From a virus, in the IMG/VR virus record IMGVR_UViG_3300046798_000124, positions 1 through 64,000 of that record: a DNA stretch of 64,000 bases. One strand, 5' to 3'. Every line of letters starts with the position of its first letter. Position 1 is the first letter of the stretch. The translations under genes and the position numbers were made by a program. The notes under the pieces were generated by a model. The model ran no database searches, had not been told where the DNA came from, and worked only from the letters and a program-made list of their open reading frames with translations. This document shows positions 44,128-49,801 of this stretch, one piece after another.

Positions 44128-44364
44128 ATGCAGAGCCAGCGCAACGGTGCCCAGAGGCCAGTCTCGCTCGACACCTTCAAGCTGATGCGCGGCGAACAGC
44201 TGCACCACCGCGAGCGCCAGGACGCCCACGACGACGGGGTGATGCAGGGGTTCTTCCTCGGCCTGTGTGCAGCGGTGCTCGGCTGGTTCGTGATCTCGGG
44301 CCATCTGGTGCGCCTGCTCTACGCCCTCGTCAGATCCATGCTGGCGCTGGACGGTGGAGCGTGA
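44128..44364 (+). CDS. Small membrane protein
   Basis: 78 residues, GAGGAGG before the ATG. A polar N-terminal half is followed by a membrane segment (GFFLGLCAAVLGWFVISGHL). GTGA overlap with the TcmP-like gene, so it is in the same operon. Confidence 0.5.
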   Translation: MQSQRNGAQRPVSLDTFKLMRGEQLHHRERQDAHDDGVMQGFFLGLCAAVLGWFVISGHLVRLLYALVRSMLALDGGA

Positions 44365-45505
44365 GTGCGCCTGCCCATCGACCGGAGAAAACAAGCCCGG
44401 CGACCCGGCCGAAACTGGAGCATTTCGGTGCGATCATCAACGAGTTCATCTCGATCTGGAAAACGCCGGGCAAGATGATCTCAGCGCCATGGGCACACCC
44501 GCGCGTTCTCCACTTCGACTTGCACGCGGCCACCGGTCATGGCGTTGAGGGGCGGGACGGCAGTGCGTTGATCGCACTCCGCAACATGCTCGCCCGAGAT
44601 CTCTCTTTCGAGTCGTTTCTCTTCGAGCAGAAGCGGTACAAGTGCGACGCGCTCCGAGAGAACATCGTGGCGATGCTTCAAGAGCATCGCGAGGCGGTGG
44701 TGGAGGGTCCGTTTCGCTCGTATCTCGGCCACACCGCGAGACGCACACCCTGTATCGAAGTGTGCCCGGTCTGTCACCCGTCGGATCTCGCTGCCTGGAT
44801 CGACGACCACGCCCACATCATCATCGGCGACCACAATGAGACCATCGATGGTGTCCTGGCCGATCTCCGTGGACGACTGAGGAAGCGCGCCTACGGCCTG
44901 GTCGTGGCCGACCCGTACGGGATCAGTGATCTCGGTCAGGAGCCGCTCATCAAACTATCGCGGGAGCCACTTCTCCAGCGCGTCGATCAACTCGTCAACG
45001 TGGCGACGACAGCCGCGAAGCGCGGCGGCTACCAGCCGGCCTACGACCTCCTCGCGCCCATCCAGAAGACACGCCGCCTCGTGCGCGAGACGTTGCCAGG
45101 CGGCGTCGATCACGGCTGGAACTGGACGATGTTTCTGTTCTCAAACTGGCGTGCCGTGCCGGCGTTCATCCGCCTCGGATTCCACGACACGCAATCACCG
45201 GAGGGGAAGCAGCTGCTGGACCGCTTCGGCCTCACCGAGCGCCAGCGCAGAGGTGTGACCTCAGCCCCTTTCGCGATGACGCGGGGTACCGGAGCTACGC
45301 CGAGTACCTCGCCCACCCCCGGTTTCGGGCCGTGCGAGCCGATGTCTTCGCCCGCTGCGGCGGCCTCTGTGAACGGTTCGACCGCACCCGAGCCTCAGAG
45401 GTCCATCACGTGAGATACCCGCCGTGGGGCACATTCGACACCGAAGAGAACCTGCTTGCAGTCTGCCGCCGTTGCCACTGCGAGATCCATGGGAAGGACG
45501 CATGA
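44361..45505 (+). CDS. TcmP-like protein joined to an HNH domain by predicted -1 frameshift
   Basis: The 0 frame starts at a GTG and carries a three-Cys-motif-partner (TcmP)-like domain: LEHFGAIINEFISIW, VLHFDLHAATGHG..GSALIAL, IIIGDHNETIDGVL and GLVVADPYGIS. After LTERQRRG the 0 frame turns into Pro/Ser low complexity and stops at 45413. At 45266-45272 stands the slippery heptamer C CCT TTC. The -1 frame after it reads SYAEYLAHPRFRAVRADVFA, then RCGGLC..VHHVRYPPWG..ENLLAVCRRCHCEIHG, an HNH nuclease. Its TGA overlaps the next start (ATGA). A 9-bp stem 8 nt downstream supports programmed frameshifting. Confidence 0.75.
45266..45312 (+). promoter_or_regulatory. Predicted -1 ribosomal frameshift signal
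   Basis: Heptamer C CCT TTC (45266-45272; P-site CCU to CCC, A-site UUC to UUU), 8-nt spacer, then stem GCGGGGTAC (45281-45289) with GTACCTCGC (45304-45312). The stem has nine pairs including one G-U, with a 14-nt loop. This is the standard slippery site/spacer/stem arrangement. Confidence 0.7.
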
Positions 45506-46926
45506 CGGTACAGCTCGCGGTGCTCAACAGCCAGGTCATGACGGTCGAGGATCAACTTGCTGAGAGCGAGGCGATCATGGAGCGGGGGCTCTCGAGTTTC
45601 CTTGAAGTCGGCCGTGAGTTGATGAAGATCAGGGCTCACGAACTCTACAAGACGAGCGGCTACCGGAGTTTCTCCGACTACCTGATGGCCCGCTGGCCCG
45701 ACTTAGGGCGGGCCTACGCTGATCGTGTCATTGCTGCAACAAGGGTCGTAGACAACCTCGCGCCAATTGGCGGCACATTACCCGTAAGCGAGTCGCAAGT
45801 CCGACCACTGACGGTTCTTGAAGCACCTGAGCAGCTTGAAGCGTGGCAGCGTGTTTTGGAGAAGACCGGCAAGAAACCCGTCACCGCCAAGCTGGTCGAG
45901 CAGACGGTCGAGGAGTTGAAAGCCGAGATCGCCGCCCGCATCGAACCCGAAGAGGACGAAGCGGAAGAAGAGACACCGGACCTCGATCACCCGCCGATCT
46001 ACCACGACGATGAAGAGGACGATGAAGAGGACGAGGAGGGTGTCCCTGAGCCTGATGCCCCGGACGCCGAGCCCGAACCCGAAGAGACGCCGTTGCTGGT
46101 CCTCCAGGTTGTTGCCGAGCAGGCTCCAACTATTCGTCCCTACTACGACCTTCCCGCCTGGGAGGCGCTCTCGGCCGATGAGCAGCAGTGGGTGATTGCA
46201 CACGCCGCCGACAAGAGCGGCGCAGGATTCAATCGGACGAACGATAACGTCGAGTGGGCGCTCTGGACCTGGAATCCCGTCACCGGCTGCAATCATGGGT
46301 GCGACTACTGCTACGCCCGCGACATCGCCAATCGCTTCTATGAGGATCTGCCGGAGGGTGAGCGATTCGCGCCGGTCTTCCGCCCGAATCGACTCCACGC
46401 GCCCCGTCGGATGAAGGTGCCGGCCGCCGCCGCGCGGAATGTCGGCGAGAAGAACGTCTTTACGGGGTCGATGACCGACCTCTTCGGCAAGTGGGTGCCG
46501 CAGGACTGGATCGACGCCGTCTTTCATGAGGTCGTCCGTGCCGAGGAGTGGAACTTCCTCTTCCTGACGAAGTTCCCGCAGCGCCTTGCCGAACAGCAGT
46601 GGCCCGAGAACGCCTGGGTGGGCACGACCGTCGACCGTCAGGCGCGGGTCGCCACCGCCGAGCGGGCGTTCCGAGGTGTCACAGCCGGCATCAAGTGGCT
46701 CTCGGTCGAGCCGATGCTCGAGCGGCTGACCTTCTCGTCGCTGGAGATGTTCGACTGGGTCGTGATCGGCGGCGCCTCCGAGAGCAGCCAGACGCCGGCG
46801 TCGCAGCCACCGACGGAATGGGTCGAGCACCTCGTCCGTCAGGCCCGCGCCGCCGGCTGCCAGGTCTATTTCAAGACCAACCTCGGCTATCGGCCTCGCG
46901 AGTACCCACAGGGAGTGACACGATGA
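45502..46926 (+). CDS. DUF5131 / three-Cys-motif radical-SAM-like protein with N-terminal phage domain
   Basis: 474 residues. Residues ~1-125 are a helical domain found in plasmid and phage proteins (GLSSFLEVGRELMKIRAHEL; SESQVRPLTVLEAPEQLEAW). A highly acidic linker (~150-205) follows. The C-terminal ~250 residues are the DUF5131 (Gp37/Gp68) family: WTWNPVTGCNHGCDYCYARD, whose CxxxCxxC would bind a 4Fe-4S cluster, then FTGSMTDLFGKWVP, NFLFLTKFPQRL, WVGTTVDRQ and WVVIGGASES. The family is genetically linked to TcmP. Its reaction is unknown. Confidence 0.85.
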   Translation: MTVQLAVLNSQVMTVEDQLAESEAIMERGLSSFLEVGRELMKIRAHELYKTSGYRSFSDYLMARWPDLGRAYADRVIAATRVVDNLAPIGGTLPVSESQVRPLTVLEAPEQLEAWQRVLEKTGKKPVTAKLVEQTVEELKAEIAARIEPEEDEAEEETPDLDHPPIYHDDEEDDEEDEEGVPEPDAPDAEPEPEETPLLVLQVVAEQAPTIRPYYDLPAWEALSADEQQWVIAHAADKSGAGFNRTNDNVEWALWTWNPVTGCNHGCDYCYARDIANRFYEDLPEGERFAPVFRPNRLHAPRRMKVPAAAARNVGEKNVFTGSMTDLFGKWVPQDWIDAVFHEVVRAEEWNFLFLTKFPQRLAEQQWPENAWVGTTVDRQARVATAERAFRGVTAGIKWLSVEPMLERLTFSSLEMFDWVVIGGASESSQTPASQPPTEWVEHLVRQARAAGCQVYFKTNLGYRPREYPQGVTR

Positions 46927-47841: not shown

Positions 47842-48636
47842 ATGATCACCGAAGAGCGCGCCAACGAGATCCTCGACGACACTGAGGACGAGGACGAGAC
47901 CCTGGTGGTCACGCCACTCTCGACCTACGAGAAGCTGGCGCTGCCGTTCGACCTGGCCGACCACGCCCGCGTCAACAAGGGGGGCATGGATCAGACGTTC
48001 GCGCCGTGGACGGTGTACGTCGAGCGGCTGAACAGCGTCCTCGGCGTCGAGAACTGGTCGTACCGGATCCCACGCGAGGGGTTCACCGAGACCGAGTGCT
48101 GGGTGCTCGCGGAGATCACCGCCTTCATCGACGGCGCCGAGATCGTGCGCCAGCAGTACGGCTCGGAGCCGATCGTCAAGGGTCGGGACGCCAAGCCGAC
48201 CACCGACCTGTTGAAGTCAACGGCGTCGGACGCGCTCAAGAAAGCCGCGTCTCTGCTCGGCGTCGGCCTCTACCTCTCGATCAAGGAGGAGCGCCTCGCC
48301 ATCGAGCAGGCGATGCGTGAGGCGGTCATGGAGGCTGCCGGGCAGATGCGCGGCGCTGGAGGCCCCCAGAGGGCGCCACAGGGTCAGGATCGGCCTGCCC
48401 CCGCCCCGACCCCGATGCGGCCACCACAGGCCGCTCAGCCGGCGCCGGCGCCGCTCGCAACTGGCGAGCGCGCCAGCCTGGAGAACAAGTACGAGGCGCT
48501 TCGCGAACAGGCTCGCCACACGGGCTTCCAGGCATCCTGGGCCACCGGTGGTCCCGAGCAGTTCAACGACATCCAACTGCCCAAGTACATCAACCTGCTG
48601 GAGCAGCACGTCGCTCGTCAGCGAGTGTCCGCGTGA
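47842..48636 (+). CDS. Rad52-family single-strand annealing protein
   Basis: 264 residues. Core features of the Rad52/DdrA-like group are visible: FAPWTVYVERLNSVLGVENWSYRI, CWVLAEITAFIDGAEIVRQQ, and PTTDLLKSTASDALKKAASLLGVGLYL, which carries the conserved Lys/Asp helix. A proline-rich linker and a helical C-terminus follow, likely for partner binding. It anneals complementary DNA during phage recombination. Confidence 0.8.
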   Translation: MITEERANEILDDTEDEDETLVVTPLSTYEKLALPFDLADHARVNKGGMDQTFAPWTVYVERLNSVLGVENWSYRIPREGFTETECWVLAEITAFIDGAEIVRQQYGSEPIVKGRDAKPTTDLLKSTASDALKKAASLLGVGLYLSIKEERLAIEQAMREAVMEAAGQMRGAGGPQRAPQGQDRPAPAPTPMRPPQAAQPAPAPLATGERASLENKYEALREQARHTGFQASWATGGPEQFNDIQLPKYINLLEQHVARQRVSA

Positions 48637-48827
48637 CAGCCGCTGAGAGCCCTGGACGCACTGAAGGCGCCCCTGCGAGGACGCCCTCAGCCGCGCAGTC
48701 TTCGACGCCTCACCGAGCGCAGAAGAAACCCGTCACGGTCATTCTACCAGGTGAGACGTCCCACGTCGACCAGTGGGAGGTCGCGATGTCCGATCAATGC
48801 GCGCTCTGGCAGCAGGGGGGCAACTGA
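48633..48827 (+). CDS. Small Pro/Ala-rich protein
   Basis: 64 residues from a GTG in a GTGA overlap; stop overlaps the next start (TGATG). Low complexity, so it may be mainly a coupling frame, but overlaps on both ends favour a real gene. Confidence 0.4.
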   Translation: MTAAESPGRTEGAPARTPSAAQSSTPHRAQKKPVTVILPGETSHVDQWEVAMSDQCALWQQGGN

Positions 48828-49801
48828 TGTTGGCGCACGAGTACCAGACGGTTCTGCCCCGCCCGTCGGATCGGTTCTCTGCGATGGGGCACCCACTGAC
48901 CGCTGACACCGACGTCTCCGATGCCGAATTCCGCTTGATCGCCGCGATCAAGCGCTACGACTGGCGCGATGGCGTCTGCCGTGCCTCGCAGGCCGTGCTC
49001 GGCGTGGACTGCGGCAAGGACGAGCGGACCGTGCGCCGGCTCGTCCTCGAACTCAAACGGAAGGATCTCCTGGTCGAAGAGAACGACCCTCGCCGCCCCG
49101 GGCGGTCCCGCGTCTATCGCCTCATCGGCGCAGCAACGACACACCCGCAAACTGGCCAACTTTGGCCAGTTTATGATCGAGACGCAGGCACCCAAACCGG
49201 CCAGAAACGGCCAGTTAAAGCGGACGATCCTGGCCAGTTAAAGCGGCCAAATCCGGCCGGGTTAAAGAAGACTCCGGAAGACCGGTTAACACCGGATACG
49301 GCTGCTACGCAGCCGGGCGCCGTCGATGACCCCATCGTGGTGTGTGCTCCACCGACGCAGGCGCCTCAACCAGCGCCGGCGCCGAAGCCGCTCCTGCCAG
49401 TCCCAAAGCCACGCGCCAGACCCGATCCGGTGACGAATCGTCTGGCCTGCGTCATCGACCGTATCCGCGCAGCTGGCCTCAATGTCGCTGTCAGCGGCCG
49501 TGACGGCGCGGCGCTGAAGGACTGCACGGCCGCGCCCGAGGAGATCGCCAACTGCTACATCGCCATCGCCCGGGGAGAGTACGGCGACGCCTACATGCGG
49601 CGCCGGCTGGCGATCCACTACGTCGCCACGGACGCCGTCAACGGCTGGCTGGTGCGTGATCAGGCCCCCACCACACCCACCAGCCCCAGGCCGATACCCG
49701 GCCGCGACGTGAACGCCGCCAGGACCGGCTACAGCGGAAGTCGAAACGGGCCGATTGATCCAACCATCGCTGAGATCTTCGAACGGACCATGGAGACGTG
49801 A
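48827..49801 (+). CDS. Replication initiator / replisome organiser
   Basis: 324 residues. N-terminal winged helix: FRLIAAIKRYDWRDGVCRASQAVLGVDCGKDERTVRRLVLELKRKD (in parts). A Pro/Lys-rich middle encoded by 23-bp DNA repeats follows, and the C-terminal helical domain is ADAVNGWLV-like. It precedes a DnaC-like loader, the lambda O/P or phage 18/19 order. It should open the origin that lies inside its own gene. Confidence 0.75.
   Translation: MLAHEYQTVLPRPSDRFSAMGHPLTADTDVSDAEFRLIAAIKRYDWRDGVCRASQAVLGVDCGKDERTVRRLVLELKRKDLLVEENDPRRPGRSRVYRLIGAATTHPQTGQLWPVYDRDAGTQTGQKRPVKADDPGQLKRPNPAGLKKTPEDRLTPDTAATQPGAVDDPIVVCAPPTQAPQPAPAPKPLLPVPKPRARPDPVTNRLACVIDRIRAAGLNVAVSGRDGAALKDCTAAPEEIANCYIAIARGEYGDAYMRRRLAIHYVATDAVNGWLVRDQAPTTPTSPRPIPGRDVNAARTGYSGSRNGPIDPTIAEIFERTMET
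49150..49267. repeat. Iteron-like repeats, candidate origin
   Basis: GGCCAGTTAAAGCGG at 49209 and 49232 and GGCCGGGTTAAAG at 49255 are exactly 23 bp apart. Further GGCCAG copies lie at 49164 and 49199, and an AACTGGCC..GGCCAGTT inverted repeat starts the set. Because 23 is not a multiple of three, the repeats are DNA signals and not a protein repeat. Confidence 0.7.

Follow-up and report, generated by a model that had tools for sequence, protein, structure and literature searches.

Two kinds of described system are among those closest to the locus considered here. Bacterial -1 frameshifts such as those of dnaX and of the phage tail genes G/GT produce two proteins with a common N-terminus, and dnaX carries a Shine-Dalgarno (SD)-like element about 10 nt upstream. 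The other is the pair formed by TcmP (TIGR04474) and DUF5131, or Gp37-Gp68 (PF07505), which resembles the PADLOC candidate defence pair PDC-M30 and in which the TcmP gene precedes that for DUF5131. Our searches of PubMed Central turned up no paper containing the word DUF5131 and met TcmP only in passing; one such mention is a table of NolR-affected genes of Sinorhizobium, where a TcmP gene is listed beside that of the defence protein Hna (PMC12445080). In this study we examine a 64,000-nt stretch of viral DNA (the window), which is positions 1 to 64,000 of the 74,167-base IMG/VR record IMGVR_UViG_3300046798_000124 and in which a TcmP-like gene and a DUF5131 gene, in the same order, enclose the reading frame of an HNH nuclease with no usual start codon ahead of its domain. 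Comparative sequence evidence from related loci leads us to propose that -1 programmed ribosomal frameshifting very probably makes both TcmP and a TcmP-HNH fusion from one mRNA.

All features of the operon lie on the plus strand. The TcmP-like gene (44361..45413) begins at a GTG that overlaps the stop of the preceding open reading frame (ORF) as GTGA and ends at the TGA 45411-45413, encoding a fold over approximately residues 6-279 and then a C-terminal tail. Within the tail, and in the TcmP frame, is the slippery heptamer C CCT TTC (45266..45272), in the correct phase for -1 slippage to CCC TTT; beyond it the 0-frame tail continues for about 46 residues of low complexity. The HNH reading frame (45266..45505; 79 amino acids; PF01844) extends in the -1 frame from CCC TTT to the TGA 45503-45505, which overlaps the ATG (45502) of the DUF5131 gene as ATGA. 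The DUF5131 gene (45502..46926; PF07505) encodes a CxxxCxxC protein with its DUF5131 domain at approximately residues 249-466. An earlier reading of this DNA made without database searches (the sequence-only reading) had placed TcmP, HNH and DUF5131 within 44361-46926 and described the frames, the ATGA overlap, the heptamer with its phase and the low-complexity tail, and our analysis agrees on each. In-frame heptamers of the form X XXY YYZ number 4 in the 15,749 codons of the long window ORFs, and CCCTTT[CT] occurs in frame only once in the same codons, at 45266, which leaves three other heptamers in long ORFs.

When TcmP was searched as a single sequence, neither viral contigs, genome contigs, phages nor plasmids yielded usable relatives, the search of viral contigs returning only one spurious peptide match (L001). 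Relatives were reached through DUF5131 and HNH searches of IMG/VR, with a yield of over 100 loci. To these a plasmid search contributed one complete Streptomyces record and a genome scan three actinobacterial contigs, and hidden Markov model searches of the six-frame ORFs of these loci produced a set of 86 non-redundant TcmP loci. The genomes around Streptomyces sp. PH10-H1, of which 395 were searched at family level and 395 at class level, gave only PH10-H1 itself and one other. An HNH is found nearby in about 50 of the 86 loci, nearly always between TcmP and DUF5131, in several arrangements. In the -1 frame, 22 loci give it a start of its own close to the TcmP stop, often as ATGA or GTGA, and 5 loci a start at some distance from that stop. 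In others it is fused in frame with TcmP as a single ORF (L018, L143, L044, L117 and L111), precedes TcmP in reversed order (L013, L016 and L112) or lies in the +1 frame, where its start is mostly inside TcmP. Five loci have a start-less -1-frame HNH, defined as one with no ATG, GTG or TTG, a class that depends on these being the starts used: the window, three viral contigs (L023, L028 and L029) and a complete Streptomyces record (L127). This last is NZ_CP130725.1, the 89,576-bp plasmid unnamed3 of Streptomyces sp. NBC_01238, and its layout is the same as that of the window. Because the record (L127, L160 and L161) carries terminase, major capsid and tape-measure genes along with ParA/ParB, we regard it as a phage-plasmid, a label that its record does not bear. 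The PLSDB gene table has no coding sequence over its HNH, an absence that is suggestive only, since by design the table does not list every gene. Such HNH genes can escape annotation because they have no start codon.

The presence of the heptamer is associated with loss of the HNH start. An in-frame C CCT TTY lies just 5' of the HNH in all five start-less loci, versus no slippery heptamer at the junction in any of the 22 loci whose -1-frame HNH has a start of its own close by; one of the latter, L046, has a single unrelated heptamer 330 nt before the stop. Fisher p values are 1.2e-5 against the 22 start-bearing loci and 1.7e-7 against all others, neither corrected for shared ancestry, and related loci, having a common history, do not count as independent cases. 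Codon choice differs in the same sense among tails with a PF motif, where all five start-less loci encode the proline as CCT and L015, L021, L030 and L064 encode it as CCG (p 0.024). L030 is a natural control: a GTG that overlaps the TcmP stop opens its HNH, and the motif is written CTT CCG TTC. The sequence-only reading had proposed looking among TcmP homologues for an HNH in the same or the -1 frame with a conserved heptamer, and would have taken independent HNH genes without a slippery site as a refutation. Both kinds of homologue exist: an HNH is in the same frame in the five in-frame fusions and in the -1 frame with C CCT TTY in all five start-less loci, and the homologues that lack the site are those whose HNH has its own start, which makes the outcome informative.

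An alternative is that the HNH is translated independently of TcmP, from the internal GTG 45335, from a non-standard codon or by re-initiation past the TcmP stop. Many relatives do have their own HNH ATG or GTG near the TcmP stop, and others start the HNH upstream inside TcmP with a strong SD (L104, and L038 and L039 with TTG and an SD of -11.0 kcal/mol). The window HNH frame, however, has no ATG, GTG or TTG between its upstream stop (~44929) and GTG 45335. That GTG is internal to the HNH domain, and translation from it would omit the conserved N-terminal Y..Y.EYL..HP part. The codon at the position of the ancestral start is GTA in L028, L127 and L023 and ACA in L029; near-cognate ATN or CTG starts are absent in these four loci, and the window has only ATT and ATC without an SD. 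As independent translation also leaves the heptamers of all five loci unexplained, we consider it improbable.

Pairs of HNH sequences among the start-less loci have ratios of nonsynonymous to synonymous substitution rates (dN/dS) of 0.08-0.18 with a third-position excess, and the domain is therefore most likely translated and useful. This purifying selection is contrary to the idea of a decaying pseudogene, which, like a sequencing or assembly error that breaks a true in-frame fusion, might otherwise be read from the C4/T3 run at the junction (C6/T4 in L002) and from the in-frame fusions of L018 and other relatives. The same phase relation also recurs in independent contigs and in the complete record from a cultured Streptomyces and, with the selection on the start-less HNHs and the existence of five in-frame fusions, makes both error and pseudogene very improbable. 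Frame change by transcriptional slippage on C and T runs would likewise be compatible with short homopolymer runs at the junction, such as the C6T4 of L002, but what is conserved is the codon phase X XXY YYZ rather than the length of the runs, and usual transcriptional slippage sites are longer than runs of 3-4, so that we judge this explanation extremely unlikely. The fusion by -1 frameshifting put forward in the sequence-only reading thus draws support from the distribution of heptamers, selection on the HNH, the in-frame fusions and the Streptomyces phage-plasmid.

The window HNH domain scores 24.1 bits against PF01844, above the cut-off of 21.4, and its HH, N and CxxCH core residues are conserved, but the second cysteine of CERC is replaced by phenylalanine (CERF, 45368-45379). 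Loss of this zinc cysteine may weaken or alter the activity of the window HNH. Both the window and L002 have a cysteine four residues before the first zinc cysteine, and this might substitute for the one lost.

Possible stimulators of slippage are found on both sides of the window heptamer. The proposed 9-bp stem with an 8-nt spacer is present 3' of it (45281..45312), with 45281-45289 paired to 45304-45312 and including one G-U pair; its minimum free energy is -20.0 kcal/mol over 45 nt, with z = -2.2, and z is only -0.6 over 80 nt. Ten nucleotides 5' of the heptamer is the SD-like sequence AGAGGTG (45249..45255), which pairs with the anti-SD at -7.1 kcal/mol, a value equalled at about 9% of random positions, and which is at best a weakly indicated stimulator. 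L028 and L029 have GCGGCG...CGCCGC hairpins 7 nt past the heptamer and SD-like sequences upstream, bringing to three the loci with hairpins at spacers of 7-8 nt. No downstream structure is common to all five start-less loci, and candidate stimulators are seen in only part of them.

Several observations weigh against frameshifting. In L023 and L127 there is no stable stem just downstream of the heptamer and no clear SD-like element. The nearest HNH relative of the window, L002, has an imperfect CCC CTT TTC (C6/T4), and its GTG starts are all distant. Coding for LPF alone can give rise to the heptamer, since CCCTTTC is present in one of the 81 other TcmP genes, that of L007, where there is no HNH; and the -1 phase is by itself no evidence, as it also results from the ATGA or GTGA overlap seen in most relatives. 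The independent cases are also only two to three, because four of the five loci share one HNH clade. In favour of frameshifting, the HNH tree separates the start-less loci into two groups, one with the window beside L002 and the other with L023/L028/L029/L127, and in the TcmP tree the pattern needs three changes; together these groupings indicate that it probably arose or moved more than once, though not five times.

Under programmed frameshifting, ribosomes that remain in frame would finish TcmP with a short or low-complexity tail, while others, at a rate that, like the slippage itself, we infer, would slip by -1 on C CCT TTC as the proline and phenylalanine tRNAs re-pair with CCC and TTT. 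The slipped ribosomes would then read the HNH frame, producing a TcmP-HNH fusion, and stop at the start of DUF5131. A likely history begins with an ancestral overlapping TcmP/HNH pair, in some lineages of which the HNH start would have been lost and the slip site would have taken over. In the window and L029 the 0-frame product runs into a meaningless tail because the TcmP stop at the overlap has also been lost.

A few loci were considered and set aside. We did not adopt +1 recoding for the +1-frame class (L010, L038, L039, L047, L054 and others). In L038 and L039, TcmP ends in QxSLF followed by TGA, and the TTT TGA resembles the site of release factor 2 (RF2), but overlapping genes are simpler there because of the TTG start with its strong SD inside TcmP. 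L003 was left out of the frameshift set for its GTG starts with good SD, and L002 for its imperfect heptamer and distant GTGs. The +1-frame HNH of L043 (2792-3061) has no standard start; its assembly may be in error, or ribosomes may slip by +1 at TTT C. In a Natrinema plasmid, an 'HNH endonuclease' (NZ_CP084473.1, 106523-107323; L159) can be aligned at 26% identity to the L018 TcmP-HNH fusion over the C-terminal half of the latter and is perhaps an archaeal relative.

The window TcmP scores 33.2 bits against TIGR04474 and the L018 fusion 35.6, both below the curated cut-off of 53, so that by the curated rule the window protein is related to the family without being a member. Structures were predicted with a mean local confidence (pLDDT) of 86.1 for the window TcmP and 91.2 for the L018 in-frame fusion. 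E. coli RlmJ is the best fold match of both (Z 14.8 for the window protein; Foldseek 7e-6 for the window TcmP and 7e-9 for the L018 fusion) and also the best match of the TcmP profile among Protein Data Bank sequences (E 0.0018). The predicted window structure has a class I S-adenosylmethionine (SAM)-methyltransferase fold. Motif IV is DPYG in the window and DPNG in the family consensus, and is not of the form (D/N)PP(Y/F); N6-adenine methyltransferases have DPPY, so that the target base need not be adenine. TcmP is thus most likely, on the strength of its modelled fold, an RlmJ-like, SAM-dependent nucleic-acid methyltransferase. The DUF5131 protein matches PF07505 at 3e-43 (148.5 bits; gathering cut-off 28.9), with its CxxxCxxC as CNHGCDYC, and has a weak radical-SAM match. 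Its N-terminal extension of about 245 residues (45502-46245) includes an acidic stretch, and the first 70 residues weakly match phrog_6963. Among PADLOC models it strongly matches PDC-M30B (2e-38) and PDC-M41B, and the window TcmP weakly matches PDC-M30A (1.7e-4, N-terminal part only); in sequence the two genes resemble the PDC-M30 pair. That TcmP, HNH and DUF5131 act together on nucleic acid, in modification and cleavage and possibly against phages or superinfection, is consistent with the RlmJ-like fold and the PADLOC match, and we offer it as a tentative proposal with somewhat less than even prospects.

The slip site is contained in the S-A-P-F codons (45261..45272), where the tails of homologues carry LPF, QxSLF or QLSLL. 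The consensus for binding to the beta sliding clamp is QLxLF (PMC4549789). QxxL[FL] is found in 13 of the 86 TcmP tails vs 2.1 in shuffles, and LF/LPF-type motifs number 48 in these tails vs 14.7, so that the short motif in many homologues resembles a clamp-binding motif; in the window TSAPF, neither the Q nor the L of that consensus is present. A doubtful but conceivable extension is that the slip-site codons also encode a C-terminal docking motif (LPF/SLF, clamp-binding in some homologues) which would target the methyltransferase to the replication clamp, slippage deciding whether a nuclease is added. If true, this would be a translationally tuned, replication-targeted modification-cleavage system of phages and phage-plasmids.

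On its 5' side in the window the operon is preceded by uncharacterised ORFs and by a repressor of phage type, which is encoded on the opposite strand. Downstream are an Erf-like single-stranded-DNA-annealing protein (47842-48636) and then an O-like replication initiator (48773-49801); with the repressor upstream and these two genes downstream, the operon lies in the early or replication part of a phage. Scanning the window record with the PF18741 profile gave no informative result.

The recurrent TcmP-DUF5131 pair gains from these results a nuclease partner and a predicted, fold-based activity, that of an RlmJ-like methyltransferase. Its relatives form a natural series of expression modes (separate genes, putative frameshift fusion and in-frame fusion), and for the -1 frameshift candidate nature supplies both controls, in the related loci, and a host in culture, Streptomyces sp. 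NBC_01238 (NZ_CP130725.1).

Compared with TcmP-DUF5131/PDC-M30, the window has an HNH added between the two genes, presumably joined by frameshift, and a TcmP below the TIGR04474 cut-off. RlmJ, the N6-methyltransferase of 23S rRNA A2030, has a fold like that of the window TcmP, with 12-17% identity and a motif IV that differs from DP[YN]G. The site C_CCU_UUU of West Nile virus is a working -1 slippery site in human cells (PMC11507841) and belongs to the same heptamer class as C CCT TTC, although it comes from an RNA virus with a pseudoknot and eukaryotic ribosomes, in contrast to a phage DNA in which the site has no more than a simple stem and an SD-like element beside it. At TcmP-HNH, bacterial ribosomes would use C CCU UUY as the slip site. 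The frameshifts of dnaX and G/GT, in turn, differ from that proposed for the window in their genes and heptamer, and the domain appended here is a nuclease.
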